Shown here one piece after another: positions 2,758 to 52,934 of a DNA stretch of 64,000 bases. A program made the position numbers and the translations under genes. The notes beneath the pieces are model-generated. The model was not told the DNA's origin. It saw nothing but the letters and a program-made list of their open reading frames with translations, and ran no database searches. The DNA lies in the NCBI GenBank assembly GCA_002842215.1, contig PHCC01000005.1, positions 124,001 to 188,000 on the forward strand, written 5' to 3'. The DNA is from Betaproteobacteria bacterium HGW-Betaproteobacteria-9 (GTDB lineage Bacteria > Pseudomonadota > Gammaproteobacteria > Burkholderiales > Burkholderiaceae_C). Position 1 is the first letter of the stretch. Each line of letters starts with the position of its first letter.

Positions 2758-2826
2758 AACCGGCTCCGCCGGGCCGTTGCAGGCGTCCCCCTGGGGGGAA
2801 GCCGCGCAGCGGCGCAGGGGGGGGAC
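2758..2826 (-). repeat. Stop-proximal GC-rich repeat, copy 1 (after the binding-protein gene)
   Basis: Read on the minus strand it starts 3 nt after the TAA of the binding-protein gene. It runs as a C-run, a TGCGCCGC...GCGGC hairpin, CCCCCC-AGGGGG, then the hairpin CCGGC-GGA-GCCGG. It shares this module order with the copies near 15.3, 16.4, 30.8, 46.5, 50.5 and 52.9 kb. It could act as an RNA hairpin or partial attenuator between the binding protein and permease C; the role is inferred only from position. Confidence 0.75.
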
Positions 2827-2827
2827 C

Positions 2828-4405
2828 TTATTTCACGCTCATGTAGCGGAACGGCATCTGGTTGTCGGCCCGTTGCGTCAACTGCACGTTGTTGGCCACA
2901 CCCCAGGCCAAGGCCTGCTGGTGCAGCGGCAGATGACCCACGTCGTTCGAATGCAGGGTGAACGCTTCCTTGATCATGGCGTTGCGCTTGGCCTGGTCGG
3001 TTTCAGACTGGATCTTGAGCGTGAGTTCGTCCACCTTCGGGTTGCAATAGGCCCCCAGGTTGAACTGGCCCGACCCCTTGTCGTCCACGCAGCGGATCAG
3101 AGCATTCAGCACGTTGTGCGCATCGTAGGTGCTGGGCGACCAGCCCAGCAGGTAGAAACTGGTGTCGCGCTTGAGAATTTTGGGGAAATAGGTGCCCTTG
3201 GTTTCCACCTGCAGGTTGACCTTGACACCGATGCGGGCCAGGTTGGCGGCCACGGCCTGGCAGATGTTGCCGTCGTTCACGTAGCGGTCGTTCGGGCAAT
3301 TCATGCCGACCTCAAAACCATTCGGGTAACCGGCCTCGGCCAGCAGTTTCTTGGCGATTTCCGGATCGTAGGGCAGGCGCTTGTCCATGCTCGGATCGAA
3401 GCCGTTGATGCCCGGACCAATCAGCAGAGCCGCTGGCGTAGCCGCACCACGCATCACCGTTTTCTGAATACCGTTGATGTCAATGGCCTGGTAGAACGCC
3501 TGACGCACGCGCTTGTCCTTGAACGGGTTCTTGCCCTTCACGCTGGAGTACAGCAACTCGTCGCGCTTCTGGTCCATGCCCAGAAAGATCCAGCGCAGCT
3601 CGGGGCCCTGGAGCACCTTGGCCTTGCCGCTGGCGTTGACGCGTGCCACGTCCTGCACCGGCACCGGTTCCATGACGTCCACCTGGCCCGACAGCAGCGC
3701 GGCCACGCGGGTCGAATCGTTGCCAATCGGGGTGTATTCCACGTTGACCACGTTGCCTTCGATCCTGCCCCAGTAGTTGCCGTTGCGCACGAAGCTGGAC
3801 TTCACGCCGGGCTGGCGCTCGCGCAGGCGGAATGGCCCTGTGCCGTTGGCGCGGAACGACGCGGCGTTCTCAATGCCCTTGCGGCGGTCCACCGGACGGG
3901 TGGCCTGGTTTTCCTCGCTCCACTGCTTGCTCATGATGTAGAAGAACGACAACACACCCGGCAGGATGGGGAACGGCGCCTTGGTTTCAAACTCCACCGT
4001 GTGCGCGTCGATCTTGCGGACTTCCTTGATGTCGTTCGTGTAGCTCTTCATGTCCGAGCCGTCACCCGACCCTCGGATAAAGCTGAACAGCACATCGTCA
4101 GCGGTGAAAGGTTTGCCGTCATGAAACGTCACGCCCTTGCGCAGTTCGAACCGCCAGACGTTGGGTGAAGTCTGCTTCCAGCTGGTGGCCAGCGCGGGCT
4201 CCAGCTGCAGTTCTTTTCCGCGGGTAACCAGGGGCTCGTACACATTGCCCGTCACGCTGAGTTGCAAGGACTCGTTGAGCGAGTGCGGGTCCATCGACAG
4301 CGCATCACCCTGGTTGCCGATGCGCACGGTTTGCGCCTGCGCGGCCCCCAGAGTGGCGAGGGCAACGGTCGCTGCACAGACCGTCAACGTTTGCTTGAAC
4401 TTCAT
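2828..4405 (-). CDS. Peptide ABC transporter periplasmic binding protein (SBP family 5)
   Basis: Periplasmic solute-binding protein, 525 aa, with a Sec signal peptide (MKFKQTLTVCAATVALATLG, cleavage likely after AQA). It then has the SBP_bac_5 pattern, including ATSWKQTSPNVWRFELRKGV and FHDGKPFTADDV near residues 75-105. The start is supported by a TAGGAG Shine-Dalgarno just upstream. It sits between an M20 amidohydrolase and permease C, so the ligand may be a peptide, acyl-amino acid or similar amide. No residue in the sequence fixes the ligand. Confidence 0.92.
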   Translation of the reverse strand: MKFKQTLTVCAATVALATLGAAQAQTVRIGNQGDALSMDPHSLNESLQLSVTGNVYEPLVTRGKELQLEPALATSWKQTSPNVWRFELRKGVTFHDGKPFTADDVLFSFIRGSGDGSDMKSYTNDIKEVRKIDAHTVEFETKAPFPILPGVLSFFYIMSKQWSEENQATRPVDRRKGIENAASFRANGTGPFRLRERQPGVKSSFVRNGNYWGRIEGNVVNVEYTPIGNDSTRVAALLSGQVDVMEPVPVQDVARVNASGKAKVLQGPELRWIFLGMDQKRDELLYSSVKGKNPFKDKRVRQAFYQAIDINGIQKTVMRGAATPAALLIGPGINGFDPSMDKRLPYDPEIAKKLLAEAGYPNGFEVGMNCPNDRYVNDGNICQAVAANLARIGVKVNLQVETKGTYFPKILKRDTSFYLLGWSPSTYDAHNVLNALIRCVDDKGSGQFNLGAYCNPKVDELTLKIQSETDQAKRNAMIKEAFTLHSNDVGHLPLHQQALAWGVANNVQLTQRADNQMPFRYMSVK

Positions 4406-4442
4406 GAGTCGCTCCTAGGCGTGGTTGGGAAAAAGGAAAACA

Positions 4443-5669
4443 TCAGTCGGCGCTGGCCAGCGGCATGCCCTGCTCAATCAGGCCGGCGTGCAGCGCGGCG
4501 CCCAGCGGCAGCACATCGTCGTTGAAATCGTAGCGGCTGTTGTGCAGGAAACAGCTGCCCACGCCGTTCTCGGCGCCCTGACCGAGCCGCAGATAAGCCC
4601 CGGGCTTGACCTGCAGCATGAAAGAAAAATCCTCGGCGCCCATACTGGGTTCCAGGTCGCGGTCCACGTGGTCGTGCCCCAGCAGCTTCTGAGCCACTTC
4701 GGCAGCGAACCGGGCCTCCTGTCGGCTGTTGATGGTCGCGGGGTAAATGCGCTCGTAATTCACATGGGCCGCGGCACCCAGTCCCAGCGCCACACCGGAA
4801 CACACCTCGTGCAGCCGGCGCTCTACCAGGTCCTGAACCTCCGGGTTGAAGGTGCGCACCGTGCCCCTGAGCGTCGCCTTGCCCGGCATCACGCTGAACG
4901 CGCCCATGTCGCCAGCCTGCATCGCGCACAGGCTCACCACGGCGCTGTCGATCGCCCGCACATTGCGCGAAACAATGCTTTGCAACGCCGTGATGATGTG
5001 GGCCGAGACCAGCACCGGGTCCACGGTCTGGTAGGGATGCGCGCCGTGGCCGCCTTTGCCGGTGATATCGATCGTGATGCGGTCGGCCGCAGCCATCATG
5101 GGCCCGGGGTTGATGCCCACCGTGCCGGGGCGCATCTGCGGCCAGTTGTGCATGGCGTAGACCGATTGCACGGGGAAGCGGTCGAACAGACCGTCTTCGA
5201 TCATGGCCTTGGCACCGGCAAAACCTTCTTCACCGGGCTGGAAGATCAGCACCGCGGTGCCATCGAACTGCCGCGTTTCGGCCAGGTAGCGGGCCGCGCC
5301 CACCAGCATGGCGGTGTGACCGTCGTGGCCGCAGCCGTGCATCATGCCCGGTTTGAGGGATTTCCAGGCAAAGTCGTTGTGCTCCGTCATGGGGAGGGCA
5401 TCCATGTCGGCGCGCAAGCCGATCATGTGGCCACTCTGGCGCTGGCTGCCGTGGATCACGGCCACCACCCCTGTCTTGCCGATGCCGGTGTGGATTTCAT
5501 CCACGCCACACACCTTGAGCGCCTCGACCACGCGCTGCGCGGTGTAGTGCTCCTCGAAACCGATTTCGGGGTGCGCGTGCAGATCGCGCCTCAACGAGGT
5601 GAGCTCCGGGAGATAAGCCGCGATGTGCGCGAAGGCGCGCCCATGGGCCTTGATGCGGGGCGCCAGCAT
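4443..5669 (-). CDS. M20D-family amidohydrolase (hippurate hydrolase/N-acyl-amino acid amidohydrolase type)
   Basis: Cytoplasmic dinuclear metal amidohydrolase, 408 aa. Visible metal and catalytic motifs are LRADMDALP, HGCGHDGHT, FQPGEEG and a late GAEDF, all typical of the HipO/IAA-amino-acid hydrolase family. The ATG at 5669 is chosen because it follows the permease stop by one base; the longer frame starting at 5732 would overlap the permease by about 60 bp. Lying inside the peptide-transport operon, it probably cleaves an imported N-acyl amino acid or peptide amide. The exact substrate is unknown. Confidence 0.9.
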   Translation of the reverse strand: MLAPRIKAHGRAFAHIAAYLPELTSLRRDLHAHPEIGFEEHYTAQRVVEALKVCGVDEIHTGIGKTGVVAVIHGSQRQSGHMIGLRADMDALPMTEHNDFAWKSLKPGMMHGCGHDGHTAMLVGAARYLAETRQFDGTAVLIFQPGEEGFAGAKAMIEDGLFDRFPVQSVYAMHNWPQMRPGTVGINPGPMMAAADRITIDITGKGGHGAHPYQTVDPVLVSAHIITALQSIVSRNVRAIDSAVVSLCAMQAGDMGAFSVMPGKATLRGTVRTFNPEVQDLVERRLHEVCSGVALGLGAAAHVNYERIYPATINSRQEARFAAEVAQKLLGHDHVDRDLEPSMGAEDFSFMLQVKPGAYLRLGQGAENGVGSCFLHNSRYDFNDDVLPLGAALHAGLIEQGMPLASAD

Positions 5670-5670
5670 G

Positions 5671-6651
5671 TCAGTGCGCCCCCGCTTTGTCGGCGCGCAG
5701 GCGCGGGTCAACGGCGAAATACAGCAGGTCAACGACCAGGTTGATCACCACGAAGATGAGGGCGATCAGGCACAGGTAGGCCGCCATGACCGGGATGTCT
5801 GCAAAGGTTACCGCCTGGATGAACAGCAGCCCCATGCCCGGCCACTGGAATACGGTTTCGGTGATGATGGCAAAGGCGATCAAGCCGCCCAGCTGCAGGC
5901 CAGTGATCGTCATCACGGGCACCAGGGTGTTTTTCAGGGCGTGCCCGAAATGCACGGCCCGGTTGGTGAGGCCGCGCGCACGGGCGAACTTGATGTAGTC
6001 GGTGCGCAGCACTTCCAGCATCTCGGCGCGCACCAGCCGCATGATCAGCGTGAGCTGGAAGATCGCCAGCGTGATCGCCGGCAGCGTGATGTGCAGCCAG
6101 CCTTTGGCAGTCAGCAGCCCGCTGCTCCACCAACCCAGCTGCACCACGTCGCCACGGCCAAAGCTGGGAAACCACCCCAGTTGCACAGCAAACACCAGGA
6201 TCAGCAAGATGCCGATCAGGAAGGTGGGCAGCGATACCCCCAGCAGCGAGATCGTCATGAACAGCTGACTGGTGAAGCTGCCGCGCTTGAGCGCTGCGTA
6301 CACACCCATGGGAATACCCAGCGCCAGCGCCATCACGCCAGCCACCAACGCCAGTTCCAGCGTAGCGGGCAAGCGTTCACCGATCAGGCGCGACACTTTG
6401 GCTCCCTGGCGCAAACTGAGTCCGAATTCGCCTTGAACCGCGTTGACCAGGAAATGCCAGAACTGCACCACAAACGGCTGGTCAAGCCCAAGGTCGACGC
6501 GGAGTTCGCGAATCTGTTCCGGCGTGGCGTCCTGCCCCAACAGGAAGACGACTGGATCACCCACATACTGGAACAGCATGAAGGCGATCAAAGCCACGCT
6601 GACCATCACCACCACAGCCTGCGCCAGGCGCCTAAGAATGAATGCGAACAT
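5671..6651 (-). CDS. Peptide ABC transporter permease (DppB/OppB type)
   Basis: Inner-membrane permease, 326 aa. It has a first transmembrane helix at residues 1-30 (FAFILRRLAQAVVVM...), the periplasmic loop LGQDATPEQIRELR, five further helices and an EAA-like loop at DYIKFARARGLTNRAV. This is the first gene of the operon. ATG at 6651 is preferred over the GTG at 6693 because it places the membrane helix at the N-terminus as usual in the family. No strong ribosome binding site is seen at either. Confidence 0.92.
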   Translation of the reverse strand: MFAFILRRLAQAVVVMVSVALIAFMLFQYVGDPVVFLLGQDATPEQIRELRVDLGLDQPFVVQFWHFLVNAVQGEFGLSLRQGAKVSRLIGERLPATLELALVAGVMALALGIPMGVYAALKRGSFTSQLFMTISLLGVSLPTFLIGILLILVFAVQLGWFPSFGRGDVVQLGWWSSGLLTAKGWLHITLPAITLAIFQLTLIMRLVRAEMLEVLRTDYIKFARARGLTNRAVHFGHALKNTLVPVMTITGLQLGGLIAFAIITETVFQWPGMGLLFIQAVTFADIPVMAAYLCLIALIFVVINLVVDLLYFAVDPRLRADKAGAH

Positions 6652-6711
6652 CTTGTGGGGAAGAAGAGGGCCAACCCAGCCGGTGGGCGACACCCTGCCG
6701 GCTGACTGAAA

Positions 6712-6867
6712 TCAGTTTACCGTGATGAGGCGCAAGTCCATCCAGTTGTCGGTGCGGTGCACCACCTCGGTGTTTTTCTTTATGGTCCATGGGATCACCT
6801 GATTGAGTCGGGGAATACGGACCCCAACAGCCAGTGCTGCACACCAGAGCACGAGCGGTGTTTTCAT
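6712..6867 (-). pseudogene. Remnant of an SBP family 5 gene: leader plus C-terminal tail
   Basis: A 51-codon open frame whose first ~16 residues look like a signal peptide (MKTPLVLWCAALAVG). Its last 27 residues align without gaps to the last 27 residues of the intact binding protein encoded at 2828-4405: 8 identities, including W, R, DN, M and R, and both end at the same point. The ~470 residues between are missing. The likely reading is a binding-protein gene that lost its middle; a short expressed peptide cannot be excluded. It lies upstream of the permease gene in the same orientation. Confidence 0.6.
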
Positions 6868-7278
6868 TGCTTGACATCTAAATGAATAGCAGTAGCCGCA
6901 CTATGCAACAACCGTTCCACAACCCAGAACGGGACTAACCCCTAGCGGCCCCTAGCCGGACACCGACTTCACCTCCACAGGTTTGCCCAGCCCGACCCAA
7001 CCCGGCCCGGCCCGGCCCGGCCCGTTCAATGGTCAGGGCGTGTTGGCGCAAAACCGGCGAGATTTCCCTGCAAGCTTCTTCGATGCGCTTCAGCGTCTCA
7101 CATATACAACTATTTGCTTATAAGTTCAACCCCATTCACCCAAGAATCCTCCGTATCCCCCAAATGCGGGAGGGACATTCAATGCCGACTCCTCTAAATT
7201 TCGTCTAGGTGTGTTTGTTACACGCCAACGTCGCGCCCAGCTCAAACCCGAGCAACAGCGCTTTTTCAATCTGTATCC
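6868..7278. other. Intergenic region with a pentanucleotide run
   Basis: About 410 bp without a convincing gene. It contains four full copies of CCCGG plus CCCG at 7001-7024, an AT-rich stretch around 7100-7130 that could hold a promoter, and the leader of the downstream helix-hairpin-helix gene. A short minus-strand frame near 7020-7110 is coding-like but unsupported. Confidence 0.5.
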
Positions 7279-7290
7279 AGGGAGTTTTGA

Positions 7291-7632
7291 ATGATCAGGA
7301 AGATGATGATGGCCTTGCTCGCGCTGTTCGCCGCCAGCGCATTTGCCGCCGTTGACGTGAACAGCGCCAGCGAAGCCGATCTTGACAGCATCAAAGGCAT
7401 TGGTCCAGGCACCTCGACCCGCATTCTGAGCGAACGCAAGGTGGGCAAATTCAAGGATTGGGCAGACCTGATCCAACGGGTTTCCGGCATTGGCGAAAAA
7501 CGCGCCGCGAAGCTGTCAGCGGAAGGTCTGACCGTCAATGGTGTCGCACATCAGGCCAACTCAGTACCCGTCAAGCCCAAGCTTGAGAAGGCGGGAACCA
7601 AAGCCACGCCAGTTGCTGGAACCGCTCAGTAA
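7291..7632 (+). CDS. ComEA-like secreted helix-hairpin-helix DNA-binding protein
   Basis: Small protein of 113 aa with a signal peptide (residues ~1-20, MIRKMMMALLALFAASAFA) followed by two helix-hairpin-helix motifs (LDSIKGIGPG and VSGIGEKRAAKL) and a Lys/Pro-rich tail. The family binds DNA in the periplasm, for example during natural transformation (ComEA). The ribosome site AGGGAG at 7279-7284 supports the ATG. The gene stands alone, with a terminator 20 bp downstream. Many betaproteobacterial members of this family have no proven role. Confidence 0.85.
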   Translation: MIRKMMMALLALFAASAFAAVDVNSASEADLDSIKGIGPGTSTRILSERKVGKFKDWADLIQRVSGIGEKRAAKLSAEGLTVNGVAHQANSVPVKPKLEKAGTKATPVAGTAQ

Positions 7633-7651
7633 GACAGCCAACCCACCAATG

Positions 7652-7687
7652 AAAAAGCCCCCGGGGACACATCCCCGGGGGCTTTTG
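7652..7687. terminator. Bidirectional rho-independent terminator
   Basis: Stem AGCCCCCGGGGA / TCCCCGGGGGCT with a CACA loop, flanked by A-run and T-run. It lies between the convergent ends of the helix-hairpin-helix gene and the first porin gene, so it can serve both. Confidence 0.92.
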
Positions 7688-7724
7688 TTCTGCGATTCCA
7701 ACGGCCTCAGGGCCGTCTGGGATA

Positions 7725-8651
7725 TCAGAACTTGTGGTTCAGGCCAACAGCGAAGAAGTCTTTGTCGACGCCGGTGGCCTTGCGGTCTTCAGCACGGAAG
7801 CCGGTGTACACCATGGTGCGCTTGGACAGGCTGTAAGCTGCGGCCACACCGAAGGCGCTGTCGCTCTCGGAGGCACCGTCGGCCTTGGAGCTGGCGTAAC
7901 CCACGGACAGCGTGAACGCGCCCAGGGGAATGTCAGCGCCAAGCTGGTAGGAGTTCACTTCAGCGTCGGCAACGCCGCCAGTGTCCTTGGTCGTGTAGTA
8001 GCTGGCCAGCAGCTTGGCAGCGCCCAGGTCGTACGAGCCGTTGAGCATGGTACCCTTCTGACCGACTTCGTTCGTTTCGTAGCCGAGGGCCGCAGCCACT
8101 GGACCACCGGCGTACTTCACGTGGAGAGCGGAGATACGCTTGCCACCAGCGGGAACGTTGCCGTTCAGCTGGGAGCTCACAGCACCGCTGACGCCAGCAA
8201 ACTCAGGCGTAGCGTAGTACAGCTGTGCATCGGCGGCGCCGGTGTAGCTGTTCTGCCAGACGTTAGCGGCCGACAGAGCCGAGTCAAAGCCGCTGTTGGA
8301 AGCGCCAAAAATGTCGTCCATGGCGTTCCAGTTGCGACCCAGCTTGAGGGTACCGAAGCCGCCGGCCAAGCCGACGTTGGCTTGACGATCAAACAGCTTG
8401 TCGTTGGTCGAACCATCGCCCAAGCTCAGCTTTTGCTCGAACTGGAAGATGGCAGACAGACCGCCGCCCAGATCTTCAGAGCCCTTGAAGCCCAAGCGGC
8501 TGGTGTTCACACCGCCACTGCCAGCAACAGCGGACTCACCCTTGACCTTGCCAACCCAGATGTCAGCGATACCGTACAGGGTCACGCTGGACTGGGCCAT
8601 GGCAGCGCCCGAAGCAGCCAGAACGGCCAGAGCAATCAGAGACTTTTTCAT
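7725..8651 (-). CDS. Outer-membrane general porin
   Basis: 308-aa porin with signal peptide MKKSLIALAVLAASGAAMAQ. The mature start SSVTLYGIADIWVG and the repeated aromatic/alternating beta-strand pattern belong to the betaproteobacterial trimeric porin family. The C-terminus ends in Phe (GLNHKF), the outer-membrane insertion signal. The loop-3-like segment lies around residues 110-140. It is a paralogue of the next gene; the pair probably passes small solutes. It ends at a shared terminator. Confidence 0.93.
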   Translation of the reverse strand: MKKSLIALAVLAASGAAMAQSSVTLYGIADIWVGKVKGESAVAGSGGVNTSRLGFKGSEDLGGGLSAIFQFEQKLSLGDGSTNDKLFDRQANVGLAGGFGTLKLGRNWNAMDDIFGASNSGFDSALSAANVWQNSYTGAADAQLYYATPEFAGVSGAVSSQLNGNVPAGGKRISALHVKYAGGPVAAALGYETNEVGQKGTMLNGSYDLGAAKLLASYYTTKDTGGVADAEVNSYQLGADIPLGAFTLSVGYASSKADGASESDSAFGVAAAYSLSKRTMVYTGFRAEDRKATGVDKDFFAVGLNHKF

Positions 8652-8870
8652 GAGATGTTTCCTTGTTTGAAAAATCCAGTCCCGTATATCGAAACCGGCT
8701 GTGAAGCGAAATCACGCTTCAAATACTAAACCGCGCTCTCGGCCCCACAAGGGTTTTCCCGCAAAAAACGACCACGCTTGCTCAAGTTTGTCGGTTTTTT
8801 GATACAACGACATACCCCAGAAGAAACCAGAAGTGAGCCATAAGACCACATGCAACGAAACCACCAATAA

Positions 8871-8902
8871 AAAACCCCTGCCGGCTAACCGGCAGGGGTT
8901 TT
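8871..8902. terminator. Rho-independent terminator of the second porin
   Basis: Perfect stem AAAACCCCTGCCGG / CCGGCAGGGGTTTT with a CTAA loop, 36 bp past the stop of the minus-strand porin gene. The remaining ~220 bp toward the first porin (8652-8870) are AT-richer and should hold that porin's promoter and leader. Confidence 0.92.
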
Positions 8903-8938
8903 GATTCGGATCAGTCGCCAGCGCAAGCCGGCGTCAGA

Positions 8939-9892
8939 TCAGAAGTTGTGGCGAACGCCCAGAGCCAAGTGGTTGAAGTTCTTGGCGTCTTCACCCTTGC
9001 CATCACGAACGATCGCTGCGTAGGTGAAGGTGCGCTTGCTCAGAGCGTACTTGGCTTCAACCAGCAGATCGGTGTCTTTGGCTTCGGTGTCGCGTGCGAC
9101 ATCCAGAGTCAGGGTCACAGGGCCCATGGTGGTGCTGCCGCCCAGCGTGAAGCCCTTGGCAACGCCAGAAGGATCCATCACAGAACCGGCCAGCTTGAAG
9201 CCACCGAAGTCGTAGCTGGCGCCCAGCACCTTGCCGGCGTCGGCATCCTGGACCTTGTCGTAAGAGAAGGCCACAACGATCGGGCCATTGCGGTAAATGG
9301 CGTTCAGGTTGTTGCGCGCACGCTCAACACCAGCGATAGCGGGAGTTGTGGCGGTAGCGGCCACGGCGCCAACCAAGTTGTTGCCCTTGAGCACGTGAGC
9401 ATAGCTGACGGAGAAGCCGGCCATGCTGGGAGTCGTGTACATGATCTGGGCAGAACTGCGGGTGTTCAGGAAGCCGAACTGCGAGCCCACGACCGAGTAG
9501 TTGGCGGTGCCGGTCAGTTCCCAGGCAGCGATGCCATAGAACGACGGGGTCAGGCTGCGACCCAGGCGCAGGTCACCGAAACCGCCACTCAGGTTCATCC
9601 AGGCAGCACGACCAAAATCACCAGCGCCGGCGGTGGAGATGGAACCATCGCCCAAGCTGAGACCTTGCTCGAAGTTGAAACCGGCCTTCAGACCGCCACC
9701 GAGGTCTTCGGTGCCACGCACGCCCCAACGGCTGGTACCGTTGTTCAAACTGCCAGCGCTCATCACAGCGGCGGAGGTGTCGGTCGACTTGGTCAGGGCC
9801 ACGTCGGCCACGCCGTACAAGGTCACGGAAGATTGAGCGAAAGCGGCGCCGGTGGCAGCCACGGCGGCCAGAGCAATCAGGGTCTTTTTCAT
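8939..9892 (-). CDS. Outer-membrane general porin (paralogue)
   Basis: 317-aa porin. The ATG at 9892 begins a standard signal peptide (MKKTLIALAAVAATGAAFAQ); the open frame extends upstream but that part lacks porin features. The mature protein starts SSVTLYGVADVALTK and ends in Phe (LGVRHNF). It shares the family layout with the porin at 7725-8651, but the loops differ, so the two may differ in pore selectivity. It is the first gene upstream and divergent to coq7; the 283-bp gap between them must hold both promoters. Confidence 0.93.
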   Translation of the reverse strand: MKKTLIALAAVAATGAAFAQSSVTLYGVADVALTKSTDTSAAVMSAGSLNNGTSRWGVRGTEDLGGGLKAGFNFEQGLSLGDGSISTAGAGDFGRAAWMNLSGGFGDLRLGRSLTPSFYGIAAWELTGTANYSVVGSQFGFLNTRSSAQIMYTTPSMAGFSVSYAHVLKGNNLVGAVAATATTPAIAGVERARNNLNAIYRNGPIVVAFSYDKVQDADAGKVLGASYDFGGFKLAGSVMDPSGVAKGFTLGGSTTMGPVTLTLDVARDTEAKDTDLLVEAKYALSKRTFTYAAIVRDGKGEDAKNFNHLALGVRHNF

Positions 9893-10175
9893 TGAGAGTA
9901 TCTCCAAGGTTGAATAAGAGGCCGTGGGTCTTAAGCCCTCGAGCCAACCTCCGTTCGTGGAAGCTGTTGCGATTGCACCAGAAGGGGCAGCCCGATGCAA
10001 AGCTTTCAGCCACCGGGGCACAGCTTTGTTGCAAAAAAGCGACAAGCCGTACACCCCAATGCATTTCGAACCACCAACAAAATAAGGGTAAATACCAAGT
10101 ACGTCGCCTATCTGCGGGAAAATAGCCTTCTGTTTGGCCCAATTGGTACCGAACCCACTCCCTGGAGATCTGCGT

Positions 10176-10823: not shown

Positions 10824-10850
10824 GCGCCTGAAGACGCCGTCAGCACGGGC

Positions 10851-11300: not shown

Positions 11301-11376
11301 GAAGCTTCCAGATGTGAAATAAACGACGATTTTGGAATCTGCTCCCTAAAAAGGAGCGAATTCACGATTCAGGATG

Positions 11377-11404
11377 TTGCGTTGCAGCATGCGAGCGCTA
11401 TACT
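11377..11404 (+). promoter_or_regulatory. Sigma-70-type promoter for the small RNA upstream of ilvA
   Basis: TTGCGT (-35 like) and TATACT (-10 like) with a 16-bp spacer. The expected transcription start is near 11411, which would yield a ~79-nt transcript up to the terminator ending at 11489. Read from sequence only. Confidence 0.6.
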
Positions 11405-11410
11405 AGCGTT

Positions 11411-11489: not shown

Positions 11490-11532
11490 GGCCGACTGGC
11501 GCGCTCTATATGATGAGCACCGAGGAAACACC

Positions 11533-13143: not shown

Positions 13144-13155
13144 GGCACCGAGACC

Positions 13156-14241: not shown

Positions 14242-14252
14242 ACCGGGGTCTT

Positions 14253-15326: not shown

Positions 15327-15327
15327 A

Positions 15328-15425
15328 CAAACTCCCCCCTGCGCCGCTGTGCGGCTTCCCCCCAGGGGGACGGTGCCCTTGGACCGGCGTAGCCGGATCT
15401 TCGGCACCCGCTGGGCAGAGGCACG
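15328..15425 (+). repeat. Stop-proximal GC-rich repeat, copy 2 (gspG-gspH)
   Basis: Begins 7 nt after the gspG stop. It shows the C-run, TGCGCCGC-TGT-GCGGC hairpin, CCCCCC-AGGGGG and ACCGGC-GTA-GCCGG hairpin in the same order as copy 1. It fills most of the gspG-gspH gap and may adjust expression of the minor pseudopilins relative to GspG. Confidence 0.75.
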
Positions 15426-16367: not shown

Positions 16368-16472
16368 AAACACCCCCCGCGCCGCTTCGCGTCACCCCCC
16401 TCAAGGGGGGCCGCACTGGCCGTCCGGCAAAGCCGGCCCGGCGGTGCCTCTGGGTGGCGTTGTTTCATGCGT
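16368..16472 (+). repeat. Stop-proximal GC-rich repeat, copy 3 (gspI-gspJ), including the gspJ start
   Basis: C-run about 10 nt after the gspI stop, then GCGCCGC-TTC-GCG, CCCCCC-TCAA-GGGGGG and CCGGC-AAA-GCCGG. Its tail, about 30 nt around GGTGCCTCTGGGTGGCG and ending TTTCATGCGT, is nearly identical to the tail of copy 7 at 52900-52934. The gspJ ATG lies in that tail. Confidence 0.78.
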
Positions 16473-30762: not shown

Positions 30763-30855
30763 TCCCCCCGCGCCGCGCCTAAGGGCGCGTCACCCCCCAG
30801 GGGGCAACGCGTGCGGCCCGGCAAAGCCGGTTCCGCCGCGTTCTGGGCGGGACTC
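30763..30855 (+). repeat. Stop-proximal GC-rich repeat, copy 4 (after gspF)
   Basis: C-run starts 2 nt after the gspF TGA. Then GCGCCGC...GGGCGCG, CCCCCC-AGGGGG, GGCCCGGC-AAA-GCCGG and TTCCGC. It has the full module set of the family. Confidence 0.78.
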
Positions 30856-40395: not shown

Positions 40396-40398
40396 GCA

Positions 40399-41619: not shown

Positions 41620-41645
41620 GGTGGGGTTCCTTCGGGTGCGTGCGC

Positions 41646-43559: not shown

Positions 43560-43595
43560 GTCAGTGACTCACGAAGTGGGCAAGCAACGGGGTGG

Positions 43596-45680: not shown

Positions 45681-45700
45681 GACCCTGATGCTAGGCCGCA

Positions 45701-46393
45701 TCAGAACGGGAAAACGTTCAAAAAGAACCGCGACAACCAGCCAATTGAGAGCGCTTCGCTGACCGCACCGCGCCCTTTGGACTCGATGCGCGCGTTGGCC
45801 ACCTGGGTGGAAGCGACCACGTTGCCGGGCCGCACGTGGCGCGGATCGACCGTGCCGGAGAAGCGCAGCACGTCGACGTTGTTGTTGACGCCGATCTGTT
45901 TCTCGCCCGCCACCAGCAGGTGGCCGTTGGGCAGCACCTGCTGCACGGTGACCGTGATCACGCCCGAGAAGTCGTTGGCGTTTTCGTTGTCGCCTTTGCC
46001 TGCAAAGTTGTTTTCGGACTCGCCGCCGAGGTTGAAGTTGCGGTCGCGCGTGAGCTCCTTGGCCACGATGCCCGGCAGGGCCGAGACGCCGCCCGAGGCA
46101 CTGCCGCTGCGATCGATCGAGGCAGAAGACGACTGGCTGGCGCTGATCTTCTCGGTGATCTGGACCGTCAGGGTGTCACCGGGCCAGCGCGCACGCGGGT
46201 CTTCAAACGCGGGGCGGTAACTCGCGGTCCGGAACAGGCTGCCGTTGGTGGGCGTGGCGACCGCAGCGGCCGGGTAGTTGATGGGCCCGACCGGCACCAC
46301 CTCGACCGGCTTGGTCATGCAGGCGGTGAGCGGGATCACAACGCCCAGGCAGGCCAGCGGACGGGCGAGTTGGAACAGGAAAGCGCGGATCAT
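45701..46393 (-). CDS. flgH: Flagellar L-ring lipoprotein FlgH
   Basis: 230-aa outer-membrane lipoprotein. Lipobox LTAC follows a hydrophobic signal (MIRAFLFQLARPLACLGVVI). Family motifs RWPGDTLTVQITEKISASQS and VLPNGHLLVAGEKQIGVN are visible. The frame is open back to 46537, but that part is translated repeat DNA, so 46393 is chosen. Confidence 0.93.
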   Translation of the reverse strand: MIRAFLFQLARPLACLGVVIPLTACMTKPVEVVPVGPINYPAAAVATPTNGSLFRTASYRPAFEDPRARWPGDTLTVQITEKISASQSSSASIDRSGSASGGVSALPGIVAKELTRDRNFNLGGESENNFAGKGDNENANDFSGVITVTVQQVLPNGHLLVAGEKQIGVNNNVDVLRFSGTVDPRHVRPGNVVASTQVANARIESKGRGAVSEALSIGWLSRFFLNVFPF

Positions 46394-46439
46394 GATGGTC
46401 TTTCGATGCAGCGTTGCGGAGGCGCGAAGGGTTTTCGAC

Positions 46440-46533
46440 CAGGGATCCCGCGGAACCGGCTTCGCCGGGCCGCCAGGATCGCCCCCTTGAGGGGGGATGC
46501 GGCTACGCGCAGCGAGCAAGCAACGGGGGTGGG
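46440..46533 (-). repeat. Stop-proximal GC-rich repeat, copy 5 (flgG-flgH)
   Basis: On the minus strand it starts at the flgG TGA with a C-rich run, then a GCTGCGCGTAGC-type hairpin, CCCCCC-TCAA-GGGGG and GGCCCGGC-GAA-GCCGG-TTCCGCGG. Same module order and sense orientation as the other copies. Confidence 0.75.
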
Positions 46534-47316
46534 TCATAACTGGCCGAGGCGTTGCAGCATCTGGTCGGAGGTCTGGATCGCCTTGGAATTCATCTCGTAG
46601 GCGCGCTGGGTCTGGATCATGGTCACCAGCTCCTGCACCACGTTGACGTTGGAGGTTTCGACATAGCCCTGCATCAGGGTGCCCAGACCCGCGGAGCCGG
46701 GCGCGCCGTTGACCGGATTGCCCGAGGCCACGGTCTCGGTGTAGAGGTTGCCGCCGCGCGGCTCCAGGCCGGCCGGGTTGACGAAGCTGGCGAGTTCGAT
46801 GTTGCCCACCTGCTGCGGCTGGGCATTGCCCGGCAGCTTGACCGTGACCACGCCGTCGTTGCCGACGGTGACGCTCTGGGCTTCGGCGGGAATGGTGATG
46901 TCACCGGCCACGGGCAGGCCGCTGGCGGTGACGAGCCGGCCCTGGGCGTCCACCTGCAGGCTGCCGTCGCGTGTGTAGCCGGTGGTGCCGTCGGGCAAAG
47001 CCACCTGGATGAAGCCGCTGCCGTTGATGGCCAGGTCGAGCTGGTTGCCCGACTGTTGCAGGCTGCCCTGTGTGAACGAGCGCGAGGTCGCCACGGTGCG
47101 CACACCCAGGCCGATCTGCAGGCCGGTGGGCAGGTTGTTCTGCTCGGTGTCGGCGGCGCCGACCTGGCGCAGGTTCTGGTACATCAGGTCCTCGAACACG
47201 GCGCTGGCGCGCTTGAAGCCGTTCGTGGACACGTTGGCCATGTTGTTGGAGATCACGTCCAGCTGCGTCTGCTGGGCCTGCATGCCGGTCTTGGAAATCC
47301 AGAGGGAATTGATCAT
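46534..47316 (-). CDS. flgG: Flagellar distal rod protein FlgG
   Basis: 260-aa rod protein with the N-terminal rod signature [19 protein letters not shown] and the C-terminal helix [19 protein letters not shown]. 260-262 aa is the normal length. It follows flgF by 23 bp. Confidence 0.95.
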
Positions 47317-47339
47317 GGTGTGCTCCTGGAAAGGGGAAA

Positions 47340-48080
47340 TCAGCCGTTCATGCTGAGCAGCCGCGAAGCGGTCTGGTCGTTCTTTTCGCCGTTCTGCAGC
47401 ATGCGCATCTGCAGCTCGAACTGGCGCGAGACGGCGATCATCCCGACCATGGCCTCGATGGGGTTCACGTTGCTGCCTTCGAGCGCGCCGCTCTGCACGC
47501 GGGCCTGCGCGTTGCTGGGCAGCGGCTCGCCCTGCGTGCCGCGGAACAGACCGTCTTCGCTGCGCCGCAGGCGGTTCTCGCCATCGGATGTGACGAGCTT
47601 GAGTTTGCCCAGGGCCTGCGCCGGCTGGTCGCCCACGCGGGCACTGACACTGCCGTCGGCCCCGATGTCGATCTGGGCGTTGGCCGGCACGACGATGGGC
47701 GCGCCGCCGTCGCTGAGCACGGGCAGGCCCTGGGCGCTGACGAGGGTGCCGTCGGCGTTGACTTCAAAGGCACCGGCGCGGGTGTAGGCCTCGGTGCCGT
47801 CCAGGCCCTGCACCGCGAAATAGGCGTCGCCCTTGGCGGCGACGTCGAGGCTGCGCCCGGTCGGGTTGATCGGGCCGGGGGTGTCCAGGTGACCGGCGGT
47901 GGCTTCGAGCGCGAAGACGCGCGTGGTGGAGCCGTCGCCGCGCACCGGCACGGCGCGGAAAGTGGCGAGCTCGGCGCGAAAGCCCGGCGTGGACGCATTG
48001 GCCAGGTTGTTGGCCAGCACCTGCTGGCGCTGCTGCGCCGCGTTGGCGCCGGTCATGGCGGTGTAGATCATGCGGTCCAT
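47340..48080 (-). CDS. flgF: Flagellar proximal rod protein FlgF
   Basis: 246-aa rod protein. N-terminal [20 protein letters not shown] and C-terminal [20 protein letters not shown] match the family. It follows flgE by 37 bp. Confidence 0.94.
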
Positions 48081-48117
48081 GGCGTGCTCCGGGGTTCTTT
48101 CGCGTCAACGGACGGCA

Positions 48118-49332
48118 TCAGCGCATGTTCAAGAGCGTGCTGAGCACCTGGTCCTGCGTCTTGATGGTCTGCGCGTTCGCCTGGTAGGCGCGCTGCGCGG
48201 TCATCATGTTGACCAGCTCGCCCGTGAGGTCGATGTTGGAATCTTCCAGCGCGCCCGCGCGCAGGGCACCGAGCTTGCCTTCACCCGGTGCACCTCGCAC
48301 CGGCTCGCCCGACTCGAAGGTCGTGGCCCAGTTGCCGCCACCGGTGGGCACGAGGCCCTGCACGTTGCGGAAGTTCACCAGCGAGATCTGGCCCGCCGCC
48401 TGCGACTGGCCGTTGGAATACCGCGCCATGATCACGCCCGACTCGTCGATGCCCAGGCTGGTGAGCTCACCCGGGCGGTAGCCGTCCTGCGTCAGGTCGG
48501 AAACCGCGAAGTCGGCGCCGAATTGCGTGGCATCGCCAAAGTCCAGGTCCACGTTGAAGGTCTGGGCCGGGTCGTTGGGCGAGGCCAGTTGCAGCTGCGG
48601 GATCACGCTGGCCGGGTCGAGCGAACCGTCGGCCAGGAAGGAGATGGTGAACGGGGTCGACAGGGCCGGGTCTGAGTTGTTGACGCTGGTGTAGACGTTC
48701 CACTGGTTGTTGCCGATCTTGTCGAACACCAGGCCGACCGGGATCTCCAGGCCCTGGGGGTCGAAGGCGTTGAGCGAGGTGGCGTAGGTGCCCAGCGGTG
48801 TGGGCGGCACCACCGTGGCGGCGATGGGCGCGCTCGCGTCCAGGTTGAATTCGGCCGCGATCGCCGTGGTCTGCTTGGCCGGGATCGGGCCGCCCGTGGG
48901 CAGGGTCAGTGGCACGGAGTCGAAGCCCTGGCGCACGCCCGCGGCGTCGGTCGGGTAGCCCATGAGCTGGCCGCCCGTGTTGGTGATGATGTTGCCCTCG
49001 CGGTCCAGCTTGAACATGCCGGCGCGGGAATAGGCCATGGAGCCGTCGGGCATGGCGAGTTCGAAGAAGCCGTTGCCGTTGATGGCGACGTCCATGTCAT
49101 TGCCGGTGACGCTGATGTTGCCCTGGGTGAACATCTGCGACACGGTGGCCACGGTCACGCCTATGCCGGAGTTGACGCCGCCCGAGGCGTTGATGGAGCT
49201 GGCGTAGAGCTCGGCGAACTCGGCACGCGAGGCTTTCATGCCCACGGTGTTGGCGTTGGCGATGTTGTGGCCGATCACGTCCAGGTTGCGACTGGCGGTG
49301 TTCAGACCGGAGAGACCTTGCTGGAAAGCCAT
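48118..49332 (-). CDS. flgE: Flagellar hook protein FlgE
   Basis: 404-aa hook subunit. N-terminal LNTASRNLDVIGHNIANANT and C-terminal LVNMMTAQRAYQANAQTIKT are the conserved axial ends; the middle (D1/D2) is variable. Exported by the flagellar apparatus. It follows flgD by 40 bp. Confidence 0.95.
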   Translation of the reverse strand: MAFQQGLSGLNTASRNLDVIGHNIANANTVGMKASRAEFAELYASSINASGGVNSGIGVTVATVSQMFTQGNISVTGNDMDVAINGNGFFELAMPDGSMAYSRAGMFKLDREGNIITNTGGQLMGYPTDAAGVRQGFDSVPLTLPTGGPIPAKQTTAIAAEFNLDASAPIAATVVPPTPLGTYATSLNAFDPQGLEIPVGLVFDKIGNNQWNVYTSVNNSDPALSTPFTISFLADGSLDPASVIPQLQLASPNDPAQTFNVDLDFGDATQFGADFAVSDLTQDGYRPGELTSLGIDESGVIMARYSNGQSQAAGQISLVNFRNVQGLVPTGGGNWATTFESGEPVRGAPGEGKLGALRAGALEDSNIDLTGELVNMMTAQRAYQANAQTIKTQDQVLSTLLNMR

Positions 49333-49372
49333 GGTGATGTCCTTGGAAAGTGGGATGAAGAAAGAACCGCGC

Positions 49373-50038
49373 TCACATGAAGCCGCGGGCCTGGTCGTAG
49401 GCCACGGCTCGTCCGTTGGCCAGTTGCAGCGAGATCGCCCCGTTGGCGAAGTTGACCGAATCGATGCGCTGGGGTGACAGCGCCGTGTTGGCCACCGCCT
49501 CGCCGCCGGTGGAGACCGAGCGCACGACGAAACGCGAGACGGTGGCCGGGTCGATGCTGCCGGCGTCCCAGCTGAAACTGTGCTGGCCCGCGCCTTTGGC
49601 GCCGAGCTTGACCGTGTCCAGCACCTGACCGGTGCTGCCCATCACGTCCACTTCCACCGAGCCGGCATCGGCCGCGAGGTTGAAGGCGCCCTTGCCGGTG
49701 CTGCCGTCGAAGGCCAGCGCATCACCTTCGACCAGCGCCTGACGGCCGATCAGGGCGGCGCCCTGCAGGGAACCGAGCGCGGCCGACTGCTCGGCCATGC
49801 CCTTGAGCGTGGCATTGAGTTCCTGGATGCCGCTGACCGTGTTGATCTGCGCCATCTGGGTCGTCATCTGCGCGTTGTCCATCGGGTTGAGCGGATCCTG
49901 GTTGTTGATCTGCGCGACCAGCAGCTTGAGGAAACGGTCCTGCGAGGCCTGGGGATCGGAGGCGTTGTTGCTGTTGACCGCCGTGGTGCTGCCCACGGTG
50001 GTGCCGAGGTTGCTGAGGTCGAGGGCTGACGTGAGCAT
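49373..50038 (-). CDS. flgD: Flagellar hook-capping protein FlgD
   Basis: 221-aa scaffold for hook growth. The N-terminal export/cap motif QDRFLKLLVAQINNQDPLNP is followed by a FLG-D tudor-like and FnIII-like part. It follows flgC by 14 bp. Confidence 0.94.
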   Translation of the reverse strand: MLTSALDLSNLGTTVGSTTAVNSNNASDPQASQDRFLKLLVAQINNQDPLNPMDNAQMTTQMAQINTVSGIQELNATLKGMAEQSAALGSLQGAALIGRQALVEGDALAFDGSTGKGAFNLAADAGSVEVDVMGSTGQVLDTVKLGAKGAGQHSFSWDAGSIDPATVSRFVVRSVSTGGEAVANTALSPQRIDSVNFANGAISLQLANGRAVAYDQARGFM

Positions 50039-50052
50039 GGTTCAAAGGCCTT

Positions 50053-50457
50053 TCACTGCCCCATCTGGAGCGTTTTGAGCAGCAACGATTTCGCCGTGTT
50101 CATGACTTCGACGTTGTTCTGGTAGGAGCGCGAGGCCGACATCATGTTGACCATCTCCTCCACCGGGTTGACGTTGGAATGGGTGACGTAACCCTCGGCG
50201 TCGGCGCTGGGGTGGCTGGGGTTGTGCACGCGGCGCCCGGGCGCATCGCTTTCCTGGATGTCCTGCACCTTGACGCCCGCGTTGCCGGAACCGCCCATGG
50301 GAACGGTCTGGAACAGCACCTGGCGCGCCTTGTAGCTCTGGCCGTCCGGTCCGGCCACGGCGTCGGCGTTGGCCAGGTTGCTGGCCACGACGTTGAGGCG
50401 CTGCGACTGCGAACTGATCGCGCTGCCCGAGACACCGAAGATGGCAAACATCGACAT
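50053..50457 (-). CDS. flgC: Flagellar proximal rod protein FlgC
   Basis: 134-aa rod protein: [18 protein letters not shown] and the C-terminal [20 protein letters not shown]. Normal family length. Confidence 0.95.
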
Positions 50458-50504
50458 GACTAAGTCCTTTCAGCCAAAACAACACCCCGGCGCAAAGTGC
50501 CCAA

Positions 50505-50592
50505 AACCAAGAACACCGCGGAACTGGCTTTGCCAGGCCGCTGGTGTTGCCCTCCTTGGGGGGTAGCGCCGAAGGCGATGCGGGGGGTGTTC
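50505..50592 (-). repeat. Stop-proximal GC-rich repeat, copy 6 (flgB-flgC)
   Basis: On the minus strand it follows the flgB TAA by about 9 nt: C-run, GCATCGCC-TTC-GGCGC, CCCCCC-AAGGAGGG, then GGCCTGGC-AAA-GCCAG. The last stem differs from other copies by a paired change (C-G to T-A in both arms), which supports a selected hairpin. Confidence 0.78.
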
Positions 50593-50596
50593 ATGG

Positions 50597-51010
50597 TTAT
50601 TGCCCCGTGATGGCGCTGAGCATCGTCTTCACATGCGAATTGATGAAACGCAGCGTGGACTCGTAGCGGATGCTGTTGTCGACGAAGTTGGCGCGCTCGC
50701 GGTCCAGGTCGACCGAGTTGCCGTCCTGGCTGGGCTGGGTCTGCACCGTGTAGGCCATGTCGGGGCTGCGCGGATCGGTGGAGCCCAGGCGCAGGTGCTG
50801 CGCGTGGGTGCGGTCCGGCGCCGAGCGCAGGCCCGACGGATCCTGCAGGCCCGCAGCGTCCTTGAGCGCGGCGGCGAAGTCAAAATCGCGGGCCACATAG
50901 CCGGGCGTGTCGGCGTTGGCGATGTTGCTGGCGATCACCTGCTGGCGCTGCGAGCGCAGCAGGAGCGCGTTGGACTGGAAGTTCAGTCCTGCGGTCATCT
51001 GTTCAAGCAT
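50597..51010 (-). CDS. flgB: Flagellar proximal rod protein FlgB
   Basis: 137-aa rod protein, first gene of the flgBCDEFGHIJKL operon. Motif QRQQVIASNIANADTPGYVA and the C-terminal SIRYESTLRFINSHVKTMLS. ATG at 51010 gives the usual family length; the frame extends to 51112 without family sequence. The 237-bp gap to the divergent flgA should hold both promoters. Confidence 0.94.
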   Translation of the reverse strand: MLEQMTAGLNFQSNALLLRSQRQQVIASNIANADTPGYVARDFDFAAALKDAAGLQDPSGLRSAPDRTHAQHLRLGSTDPRSPDMAYTVQTQPSQDGNSVDLDRERANFVDNSIRYESTLRFINSHVKTMLSAITGQ

Positions 51011-51247
51011 GGCGTTCTCCAGACAGGGTTGAGGGGGGCGGCAAAAGCGCAGGCTTGCACCGACATGAACGCAAGTATGGGAAAACTTGAGCCCCTGCAA
51101 TGGCCCGAACAAACGCCACTTAGTCGGGCATTTCGCCGCTTTGATGGTTGCCGGGCCGGCCTAAAGTGGCTCACAGCAGGCATGGGCTGGGCACACCCGT
51201 CCGCCTTTGCGCCGGCAGCAGCCGGACCGCCTGCGGAGGTCTTCCCG

Positions 51248-52030
51248 ATGAACAAGCACACTTCTTTCTGTTTTCTGCGGTCCGCCCGAGCCAGCGCCGC
51301 CGGGTGGCTCGCCGCCGGGCTGCTGCTCGCCGGCCTGACCGGCCCGGCCCGGGCGCAGTTCGCCGTGGCACCGGCCACCAGCGCCGACGACCGCGCCCTG
51401 CTCGCGCAGATGGCGCGCGACTACGTCGAACCGGCCCTGGCCAACGCCCTGAGCGAAAACGCCGGCGGCGTGCTGCGGCCCGAGGTGGTCATGGGCGCGC
51501 TGGACTCGCGCCTGCGCCTGAGCCCCTGTCCCCGCATCGAACCCTATCTGCCCCCCGGCACCCGCCTCTGGGGGCGCAGCCGCATCGGCCTGCGCTGCCT
51601 GGAGGGCCAGGTGCGCTGGAACGTGTTTGTGCCCGTCACCATCAAGGCCTGGGGCCCGGCCTGGGTGCTCAGACGCCCGGTGCCCGCCGGCACCGCCCTG
51701 GTTCAAGAAGACGCCGAACTGGCCGAAATGGACTGGGCCGAGCAGTCGGCCAGCGTGCTGGTCACGCCCGAAAGCTGGATCGGCCAGCAGGCGGCCTTTG
51801 CGCTGAACCCGGGGCAGACCCTGCGCGAGAACATGGTGCGCCCGGTGCCGGCATTTGACCGGGGCGCTCAGGTCAAGGTAAAAAGCGAAGGCACTGGCTT
51901 TCAGGTGGTGGTCAGCGGCGAGGCCATGGGGGTGGGCGTCGTGGGCCAGACGGTCCGCGTGAGGCTCAACGGCGGTCGCGTGGTCACCGGGACGGTGCGC
52001 GATGGACCGCTGGTGGAGGTCCGGCTTTGA
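51248..52030 (+). CDS. flgA: Flagellar P-ring assembly chaperone FlgA
   Basis: 260-aa periplasmic chaperone. Sec signal (SAAGWLAAGLLLAGLTGPARA), then a SAF domain with the motif RRPVPAGTALVQEDAELAEM and the C-terminal conserved block NPGQTLRENMVRPVP. GGAGG lies about 10 nt before the ATG. Divergent from flgB. Confidence 0.93.
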   Translation: MNKHTSFCFLRSARASAAGWLAAGLLLAGLTGPARAQFAVAPATSADDRALLAQMARDYVEPALANALSENAGGVLRPEVVMGALDSRLRLSPCPRIEPYLPPGTRLWGRSRIGLRCLEGQVRWNVFVPVTIKAWGPAWVLRRPVPAGTALVQEDAELAEMDWAEQSASVLVTPESWIGQQAAFALNPGQTLRENMVRPVPAFDRGAQVKVKSEGTGFQVVVSGEAMGVGVVGQTVRVRLNGGRVVTGTVRDGPLVEVRL

Positions 52031-52086
52031 GCCCGCCAGTACCGCTTTGTCAGCAGTTCCCGTGATCTATTCAGCAAAAAAGACCT

Positions 52087-52113
52087 TAAGTACGCCTTCT
52101 TTTGTGCCGATAG
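52087..52113 (+). promoter_or_regulatory. Sigma-28 (FliA) promoter of flgM
   Basis: TAAG, 15-bp spacer, GCCGATAG: an almost perfect match to the FliA consensus (TAAA-N15-GCCGATAA). It lies 40 bp before the flgM ATG. fliA itself is encoded at 59843-60568. Confidence 0.88.
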
Positions 52114-52126
52114 TCATTCCACAACG

Positions 52127-52140
52127 CCTCGAATTCGAGG
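52127..52140. promoter_or_regulatory. 14-bp perfect palindrome in the flgM leader
   Basis: CCTCGAATTCGAGG, located between the sigma-28 -10 element and the flgM ribosome site. In RNA it would be a stem without a proper loop, so a protein-binding DNA site is as likely. Function unknown. Confidence 0.6.
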
Positions 52141-52153
52141 TTTGGAGAGTGAA

Positions 52154-52495
52154 ATGAAAGTCGAATCATCATCACCGGATTCCTACATTGGTTCCGTCGC
52201 CGGGGGTCCGCAGAAGACGGCCGACAACCCGTCGGCTGGCGCCCAGGGTGCTGCCGGGGCGGCGGCCAAGCCGCAGGCGAATGCGGGCGTGACCGTCACC
52301 CTGTCGTCGTCGACCGTGTCGGCGATGCAGAGCGCCTCCGCGAGCGGCAACGAGGTGTTCAACGCCGAAAAGGTCGAGTCGATGAAGGCGGCCATCGCCA
52401 ACGGGAGCTTCCAGGTCAACGCCGAAGCGATTGCTGACAAAATGTTGTCCAACGCGGCTGAAATGCTCAGCGGCGCCAGCGGCAACCGCGCCTGA
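52154..52495 (+). CDS. flgM: Anti-sigma-28 factor FlgM
   Basis: 113-aa protein with a Gly/Ala-rich N-terminus and the FliA-binding C-terminal part (AEKVESMKAAIANG-like block, then ADKMLSNAAEMLSGA). It holds FliA inactive until the hook is complete, then is exported. ATG at 52154 follows GGAGAG; the upstream TTG is not favoured. flgN starts 23 bp after its stop. Confidence 0.9.
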   Translation: MKVESSSPDSYIGSVAGGPQKTADNPSAGAQGAAGAAAKPQANAGVTVTLSSSTVSAMQSASASGNEVFNAEKVESMKAAIANGSFQVNAEAIADKMLSNAAEMLSGASGNRA

Positions 52496-52518
52496 TCACC
52501 CCCCACCGGACCACCGCC

Positions 52519-52887
52519 ATGAGCCAAGCTCCCGACACCCACCCCTGGATCGCCTCGCTGCAGACCGGGCTGGACCGTCTGGAACGGGCTTTGCTCGACA
52601 GCGATCCCGACGGTGTGGAGAAGGCCAGCGCCCAGATCCAGATGGTGTTGCAGAAGGCCCCGAAGACCGCCGAATTTGCCGTGCCCGGCAGCAGCCTGCG
52701 CATCGACATGCTGCAGGCCGCCCAGCGCTTTGGGCAACTGCGCCAGACCGTGCTGCGCGCGGGTGCGCAAAGCCAGCGTGCACTCAACAGCCTGCTGCCC
52801 CAGCAGGCCCAACCGCCCACCTACAACCGCCTCGTCGGCCCGGCCTCCTCCATCGGCGGCGCTGGACGGGGCTATCTCTCCGCTTGA
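52519..52887 (+). CDS. flgN: Flagellar export chaperone FlgN
   Basis: 122-aa, mainly helical chaperone for FlgK and FlgL (SLQTGLDRLERALLDSD...). Low sequence conservation is usual; the assignment rests on position after flgM and on size and helix pattern. Confidence 0.85.
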   Translation: MSQAPDTHPWIASLQTGLDRLERALLDSDPDGVEKASAQIQMVLQKAPKTAEFAVPGSSLRIDMLQAAQRFGQLRQTVLRAGAQSQRALNSLLPQQAQPPTYNRLVGPASSIGGAGRGYLSA

Positions 52888-52892
52888 GCTGA

Positions 52893-52934
52893 GACACCCC
52901 CGGCGGTGCCTCTGGGAGGCGTTGCTTCATGCGT
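52893..52934 (+). repeat. Stop-proximal GC-rich repeat, copy 7 (after flgN), shortened
   Basis: Starts about 9 nt after the flgN stop with a C-run and goes directly to the tail GGTGCCTCTGGGAGGCG...TTCATGCGT, which matches the end of copy 3. The middle hairpin modules are missing. Confidence 0.65.

Follow-up and report, generated by a model that had tools for sequence, protein, structure and literature searches.

The Beta-proteobacterial repeat element (BRE; Hot et al. 2011, PMC3110155) is reported as a chromosomal, mostly intergenic sequence of 75-91 bp that is found in Bordetella and Comamonadaceae and is arranged in tandem at some loci; no locus in Table 3 of that report lies between divergent genes. 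Repetitive extragenic palindromic (REP) sequences, built on a palindrome of 20-40 bp (PMC3733652), together with bacterial interspersed mosaic elements (BIMEs) and REP doublets forming hairpins (REPINs), are small, GC-rich palindromes repeated many times at the ends of genes in enterobacteria and pseudomonads. A repeat resembling both kinds is present in the 64,000-nucleotide stretch of DNA analysed here (the window), which comprises positions 124,001 to 188,000 of contig PHCC01000005.1 of Betaproteobacteria bacterium HGW-Betaproteobacteria-9 (G000:C57:124001-188000; the source genome, G000, has 5.26 Mb in 57 contigs). The element is real and belongs to a large, strongly structured and strictly placed family, whose members are three-hairpin modules of about 85-115 nt located, in nearly all cases, immediately behind the stop codons of genes on the same strand.

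Compared by description only, the element is probably kin to BRE. It likewise occurs in Bordetella and related betaproteobacteria and in tandem at some loci (five units at L101). Its G+C content is higher, at a mean of 77.5% (71.8-80.8%) in 25 copies from Bordetella and Achromobacter against 69.0% (63.7-78.9%) for BRE (PMC3110155), with overlapping ranges. A stop-codon rule, a strand rule and a fold are not among the features reported in the BRE sections of PMC3110155, and bprJ, which sets the orientation of BRE, is described there as transcribed opposite to both of its neighbours. Its listing among the small RNAs altered in an RNase III mutant (PMC8386462) is a hint only. No repeat was found behind lexA in nine genomes of the Bordetella genus and six related ones, and the covariance model introduced below (R1) had no match behind lexA in the nine. 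The original prediction, made on the window from its letters alone, knew of no named family; BRE is a named candidate already in print.

The placement of the element is far stricter than that of REP. In three stretches of Escherichia coli K-12 (150 kb), used as a yardstick, 12 of the 19 intergenic REP heads follow a same-sense gene and two of the 19 are no more than 13 nt from a same-sense stop, in contrast to 56 of 65 intergenic copies of the element here. REPs tagged with GTAG or CGTC (PMC3733652) and YPAL/RU-2 (PMC2229807) are also palindromic and near coding regions; the ends of GTAG REPs can supply a stop codon. For YPAL, sites with and without the repeat are described, and it may be translated together with the genes before it. 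The element has no common tag with them by eye and differs in fold, and a sense-only position behind stops is not among the features given for them in the relevant parts of these two reports. Literature that scarcely covers subscription journals yielded no sense-only stop-codon rule for betaproteobacterial repeats.

Placement and fold

R1 comprises 84 positions and 23 pairs and was built from 21 aligned seed copies with a common fold, including window copies 1 and 2. It recognises six of the seven window copies (49.4-100.3 bits, four of them from outside the seed), the next match in the window scoring 20.8 bits. Of the seven copies of shared module order that had been proposed, the unmatched seventh is a truncated remnant by eye. 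BLAST with copy 2 gave 43 matches in G000. As a genome-wide R1 search of G000, in which the best 150 candidates were scored, misses at least three window copies, copy counts were taken from a census of 864 kb, made up of the window and 40 stretches of 20 kb on contigs known from BLAST or R1 matches; the stretches start at round coordinates, chosen to avoid score-based selection. A custom dicodon caller predicted 832 genes in the census (88% coding). The census contains 70 R1 matches of at least 41.8 bits, followed by scores of 34.5, 31.0, 29.9, 27.0 and 26.3 and then of 21.4 bits or less; extrapolation suggests roughly 430 copies in the whole genome, and the family is far larger than the seven copies first noticed. 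Rfam 15 has no match at gathering score in the window, and at a relaxed threshold six loci gave a single match, P9 (E 0.038 in L149), below its gathering score.

Among the 70 census copies, 63 are intergenic behind a same-sense gene, and in 56 of these the first position falls at -2 to 13 nt relative to its stop codon. When both position and strand are drawn at random from intergenic DNA, 4.4% of the draws fall under this 13-nt sense rule, so the bias beyond random insertion that had been inferred from the window holds in the census. A lighter test, which requires an open reading frame (ORF) of coding-like dicodon usage to end between -3 and 30 nt ahead of the copy, is passed by 61 of 70 copies and by 52 of 3500 random positions. 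Of the best 30 R1 matches in G000, 24 lie no more than 13 nt from a stop, and all seven window copies follow the stop of a co-oriented gene, as originally described. The element is carried by 61 of 784 gene ends examined in G000 (about 8%). Its first paired base is located 8-23 nt past the stop in 56 of the 61 stop-assigned copies and 32-49 nt past it in the other five, but never closer than 8 nt; a ribosome with a stop codon in the A site covers roughly 10 nt beyond the stop in toeprint work. A second stop trinucleotide is present in the leader of 10 of the 25 copies with a leader of 5-13 nt, whereas length-matched control ends would give about two, and not one of 10,000 draws came to 10. Element-bearing genes end in TAA in 16 of 61 cases and in TAG in seven, as against 70 and 35 of 723 other predicted genes, counts that are uncorrected for overlapping genes. 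At L083:6076-6324, two inverted copies lie between same-strand genes, the second of which is trmD-like by eye; the second copy is antisense.

Read in the sense of the messenger RNA (mRNA), the module consists of the stop codon, a short leader, a C-run, a small hairpin, a C5-6/G5-6 hairpin and a long hairpin. Its fold is established by covariation. Standard pairs occupy 95.1% of the pair cells in the 70 copies, compared with 84.0% in shuffled alignments and 32-53% when the columns are slid by 1-3 positions; two-sided changes occur in 14 of 23 pairs, and none of 500 shuffles matches any of five measures. That alignment was fitted to R1 itself. A fit-independent test was anchored on the CCGGC-N3-GCCGG core, found in 64 of the 70 copies, with the best arm register tried. 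It concerns the outer stem of the long hairpin, just outside the CCGGC/GCCGG pairing, which is the most variable part of the module and had been overlooked in the original prediction: although it differs between copies (30 distinct left arms), self-complementarity is kept, with five or six of six positions pairing in 60 of 64 copies and a mean pairing of 93.5%, compared with 68.7% for shuffled partners (maximum of 2000 shuffles 74.7%). The variation noticed in the window is genuine, both the two-sided C-G to T-A change in the last stem of copy 6 and that of the loop (AAA 38, GAA 13, AGA 4, GGA 4, ACA 2, CAA 2 and GTA 1 among the 64 copies). Absence of a stop or strand preference, or of covariation above shuffled controls, had been named in advance as grounds for abandoning the prediction; in the census neither applies. 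In the sense reading, G-U cells outnumber A-C cells 84 to 12, but two pairs account for 78 of the 84, which makes wobble a weak argument for an RNA of this sense; the strand assignment rests on position. In some copies (L066:15769, L097:7462, L143 and L144), self-complementary inserts lengthen the C-run/G-run hairpin at its tip. The tandem array at L101:1114-1690 (G005) places its five units behind one stop with a period of about 116-117 nt, and neighbouring units have different outer stems, each self-complementary.

Orthologous sites and sister families

Five orthologous sites are filled by a repeat in some genomes and empty in others, and the stop stays on the same codon or close to it. The sites were picked for a copy in G000, and most regions for filled or empty forms suggested by BLAST, so that the counts are no frequencies. 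Behind gspG, 10 of 20 genomes have a repeat and 10 have none. The filled forms there contain family B (L103, L105-L108 and L110-L112), family A (L104) or a degenerate A-like copy (L109). Between gspI and gspJ, family B is present in three of 19 usable regions (L104, L107 and L110) and 16 are empty. Among 20 regions at gspF, seven have family A (L125-L127, L139-L141 and, truncated, L132), 12 are empty, the two genes being 0-6 nt apart, and L124 has an unlike insert. The flgG/H site is filled in four of eight regions (L225, L227, L233 and L235) and empty in four; flgB/C is filled in five of 12 (L226, L234 and L238-L240) and empty in seven, with 16-26 nt between the genes. In most filled forms the position of the stop codon is unchanged. 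In empty forms the last codon of gspF is ACC, ACT, AGC, GGC or, in a single case, AAG; in filled ones it is mostly AGG, AAG, AAA or TCA (L127 and L132 having ACT and ACC), which implies that insertion can alter the last codon. The ribosome-binding-site-like GAAAGGA of flgC lies 3' of the copy in six of six filled forms and directly past the stop in four of the seven empty ones, with variants in the other three. No target-site duplication was recognised by eye at gspF and flgB/C.

At flgB/C, the copies of six species have the leader in common and, except in L239, the first hairpin; the outer stem is fully paired in all six, and two-sided changes between species affect the outer stem (AACACC/GGTGTT versus GACACC/GGTGTC), the junction and the inner stem. 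In five species the core is 86.5% identical and the tail 48-50%. Full pairing is also found in five of five copies at flgG/H, with four different outer stems, and in seven of eight at gspF. In L239:224-387 (G007, flgB/C), a second copy apparently lies within the 5' portion of the first one.

R1 matches occur in all 14 same-genus relatives searched, with 4 to at least 144 per genome among the matches listed (at most the best 150 candidates being scored per genome), and in none of nine genomes of other families. Under stricter filters, with the best 18 candidates scored per genome, at least eight of 250 genomes of the order have matches, six belonging to family f1 and two to f4. The f4-form pattern matches 25 contig stretches, all from Bordetella or Achromobacter; 20 of these copies lie 4-16 nt past an open frame of at least 70 codons, one lies 20 nt past such a frame and four follow only short frames, while 5.1% of random positions in the same loci pass. 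The element occurs in the named Bordetella petrii and Bordetella genomosp. 2, and two Bordetella genomes have 28 and 3 R1 matches. No match was found in 50,697 phage records at the sensitivity used. Two plasmid records each contain a 32-base match directly behind an annotated coding-sequence end in an aromatic-degradation operon, and by eye both copies extend beyond the 32 bases as full-looking elements.

Family B is of like architecture and occupies the same gene ends (gspG and gspI) in relatives; in G000, five of its 12 matches are in predicted ORFs. Families A and B seem to intergrade, since by eye the copies of G121 and G161 combine a 5' half resembling A with an inner hairpin resembling B. 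Family C, which differs in sequence, lies 0-2 nt behind a same-sense stop in five of nine matches (examples in Table 1).

Possible roles and modes of spread

The strict placement in position and strand, the conservation of the fold, the empty and filled sites and the second family at the same gene ends in relatives are together consistent with a spreading REP/BRE-like RNA module that acts as a barrier just past the terminating ribosome, an explanation to which we give about an even chance. Copies would enter immediately 3' of stop codons and then be retained there in sense; targeted insertion, selection or both could produce the stop rule. In the mRNA the module would fold at the leading edge of the terminating ribosome, where such a barrier might shield the upstream message from 3' exonucleases and might slow or uncouple ribosomes at the gene boundary, effects that have been reported for E. 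coli REP. Some REPs are situated no more than 15 nt from a stop, and these reportedly stall ribosomes (PMC12306157, which cites Liang et al. 2015), while operon hairpins are reported to shield upstream genes (PMC5927463); as described in the latter report, the protective 3' hairpins are single native ones, unlike the repeat family here. Of the RNA roles originally suggested, mRNA stability, processing and translational uncoupling may each apply, whereas partial termination is not supported by the counts of terminators and of convergent ends given below.

Several observations weigh against a post-stop barrier of this kind. The remaining seven of the 63 same-sense intergenic copies start at 22, 22, 23, 29, 39, 263 and 303 nt, and the rule is broken outright by two of the 70 copies behind an opposite-sense gene and by five in predicted ORFs, some of which may reflect wrong gene calls. 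Family B in G000 has just three of 12 matches within 13 nt behind a same-sense stop. The exception to full pairing at gspF is L140, with one broken outer pair, and inclusion of L239 lowers core identity at flgB/C to 77.2%, with the tail at 45-50%. Without the two pairs that dominate the wobble count, G-U and A-C cells stand at 6 to 11. Conversion between copies, finally, could mimic selection on the fold. A broader proposal appears rather doubtful, namely that these are mobile RNA modules tied to translation termination, whose insertion or function needs a terminating ribosome, with the leader as a reserve of stops, the first stem spaced to the ribosome edge and the rule shared by families A, B and C; the poor adherence of family B in G000 to the rule counts slightly against it.

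A selfish, host-neutral mobile repeat preferring gene ends, whose fold serves its mobility and whose leader, which often carries TGA, allows entry with the protein unaltered, is unlikely but deserves serious consideration. The many similar copies with subfamilies, the tandem arrays, the empty and filled sites and the excess of stops in the leader would all suit it, and the best-scoring copies follow the rule like the rest (10 of 13 versus 51 of 57 in the lighter test, p = 0.35, at low power), as targeted insertion would give. The class of gene end also matters little, with copies at 20 of 202 convergent ends and 41 of 582 others (p = 0.22). On the other hand, the two-sided changes at flgB/C and a core better kept than the tail suggest upkeep after insertion, and no mobilising enzyme was identified in searches for Y1_Tnp and RVT_1. 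Spread by the Y1 transposase of the genus, after the manner of REP and REP-associated tyrosine transposases (RAYTs), is improbable. A Y1_Tnp gene is present in 13 of 15 same-genus genomes, as one copy in 12 and two in G008, and a single gene copy per genome is typical of RAYTs; but R1 has no match in the flanks of the nine scanned among the 14 Y1_Tnp genes of the genus, G002 and G006 list 14 and 22 copies although no Y1_Tnp was found in them (G006 being 81% complete), and genomes with one such gene list anywhere between 4 and at least 144 copies. Least credible is an RNA intermediate spread by a resident reverse transcriptase: an mRNA target would give sense-only placement behind genes, yet G003, G004, G007, G008, G010 and G011, with 73-144 copies listed each, have no RVT_1 match (G004 and G008 being only 80-82% complete).

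GC-rich hairpins at gene ends also recall transcription terminators, but a complete or partial terminator is, by a little, still harder to credit than a RAYT-like origin. The module has no T-run by eye, copies sit within gsp and flg operons, where downstream genes would be cut off, and the figures for convergent ends given above show no significant enrichment. Hairpins with a T-run occur in the stretch downstream of seven of 61 element ends and of 57 of 723 others (p = 0.33). Among other ends with a gap of at least 40 nt the count is 56 of 361 (p = 0.56), and such slightly fewer canonical terminators at comparable element ends would fit partial replacement too.

The element adds RNA structure at the site of translation termination, and the set of operons that carry it varies between species of one genus. 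If the rule is functional, these sites would form a natural series for testing the effect of post-stop structure on the lifetime of mRNA, the release of ribosomes and the balance within operons; should the rule reflect an insertion preference, this would be a mobile element able to locate stop codons, a behaviour of which we know no precedent. In both cases, an anatomy and a rule of placement are now available for repeats of the BRE kind.

Copies in the window

The copies in the window and the examples of family C are listed in Table 1. By eye, copy 7 is a leader and C-run fused to the 3' part of another subtype. A simple pattern, a C4-G4 hairpin followed by CCGGC-N3-GCCGG, has five matches in the window and none in 100 shuffles.

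Table 1. Repeat copies in the window, with neighbouring genes (Pfam families in brackets), and examples of family C
Copy	Location	Strand	R1 score (bits)	R1 start past stop	Upstream gene	Downstream gene
1	2739-2822	-	85.6	5 nt	family-5 solute-binding protein gene, 2828-4405, - (SBP_bac_5)	OppC-like permease gene (BPD_transp_1)
2	15334-15417	+	100.3	7 nt	gspG (T2SSG)	gspH (named by context)
3	16372-16457	+	50.9	8 nt	gspI (T2SSI)	gspJ (named by context)
4	30763-30849	+	49.8	1 nt	gspF (T2SSF)	5'-nucleotidase gene (5-nucleotidase)
5	46435-46533 including C-run	-	49.4 (for 46435-46520)	13 nt; C-run itself immediately 3' of stop	flgG (FlgE/F/G domains)	flgH (FlgH)
6	50503-50588	-	59.5	8 nt	flgB, named by context (Flg_bb_rod)	flgC, named by context (Flg_bb_rod)
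7	52895-52960 (ends set by eye)	+	no match	C-run about 7 nt past stop, by eye	ORF 52519-52887, + (no Pfam match)	
Family C	L069:8232-8289					
Family C	L083:4388-4443					
Family C	L067:7343-7452					

A different post-stop repeat (GAGGCTGAGAG...) is present at 54205-54365 of the window as an inverted pair and occurs once more in L077.

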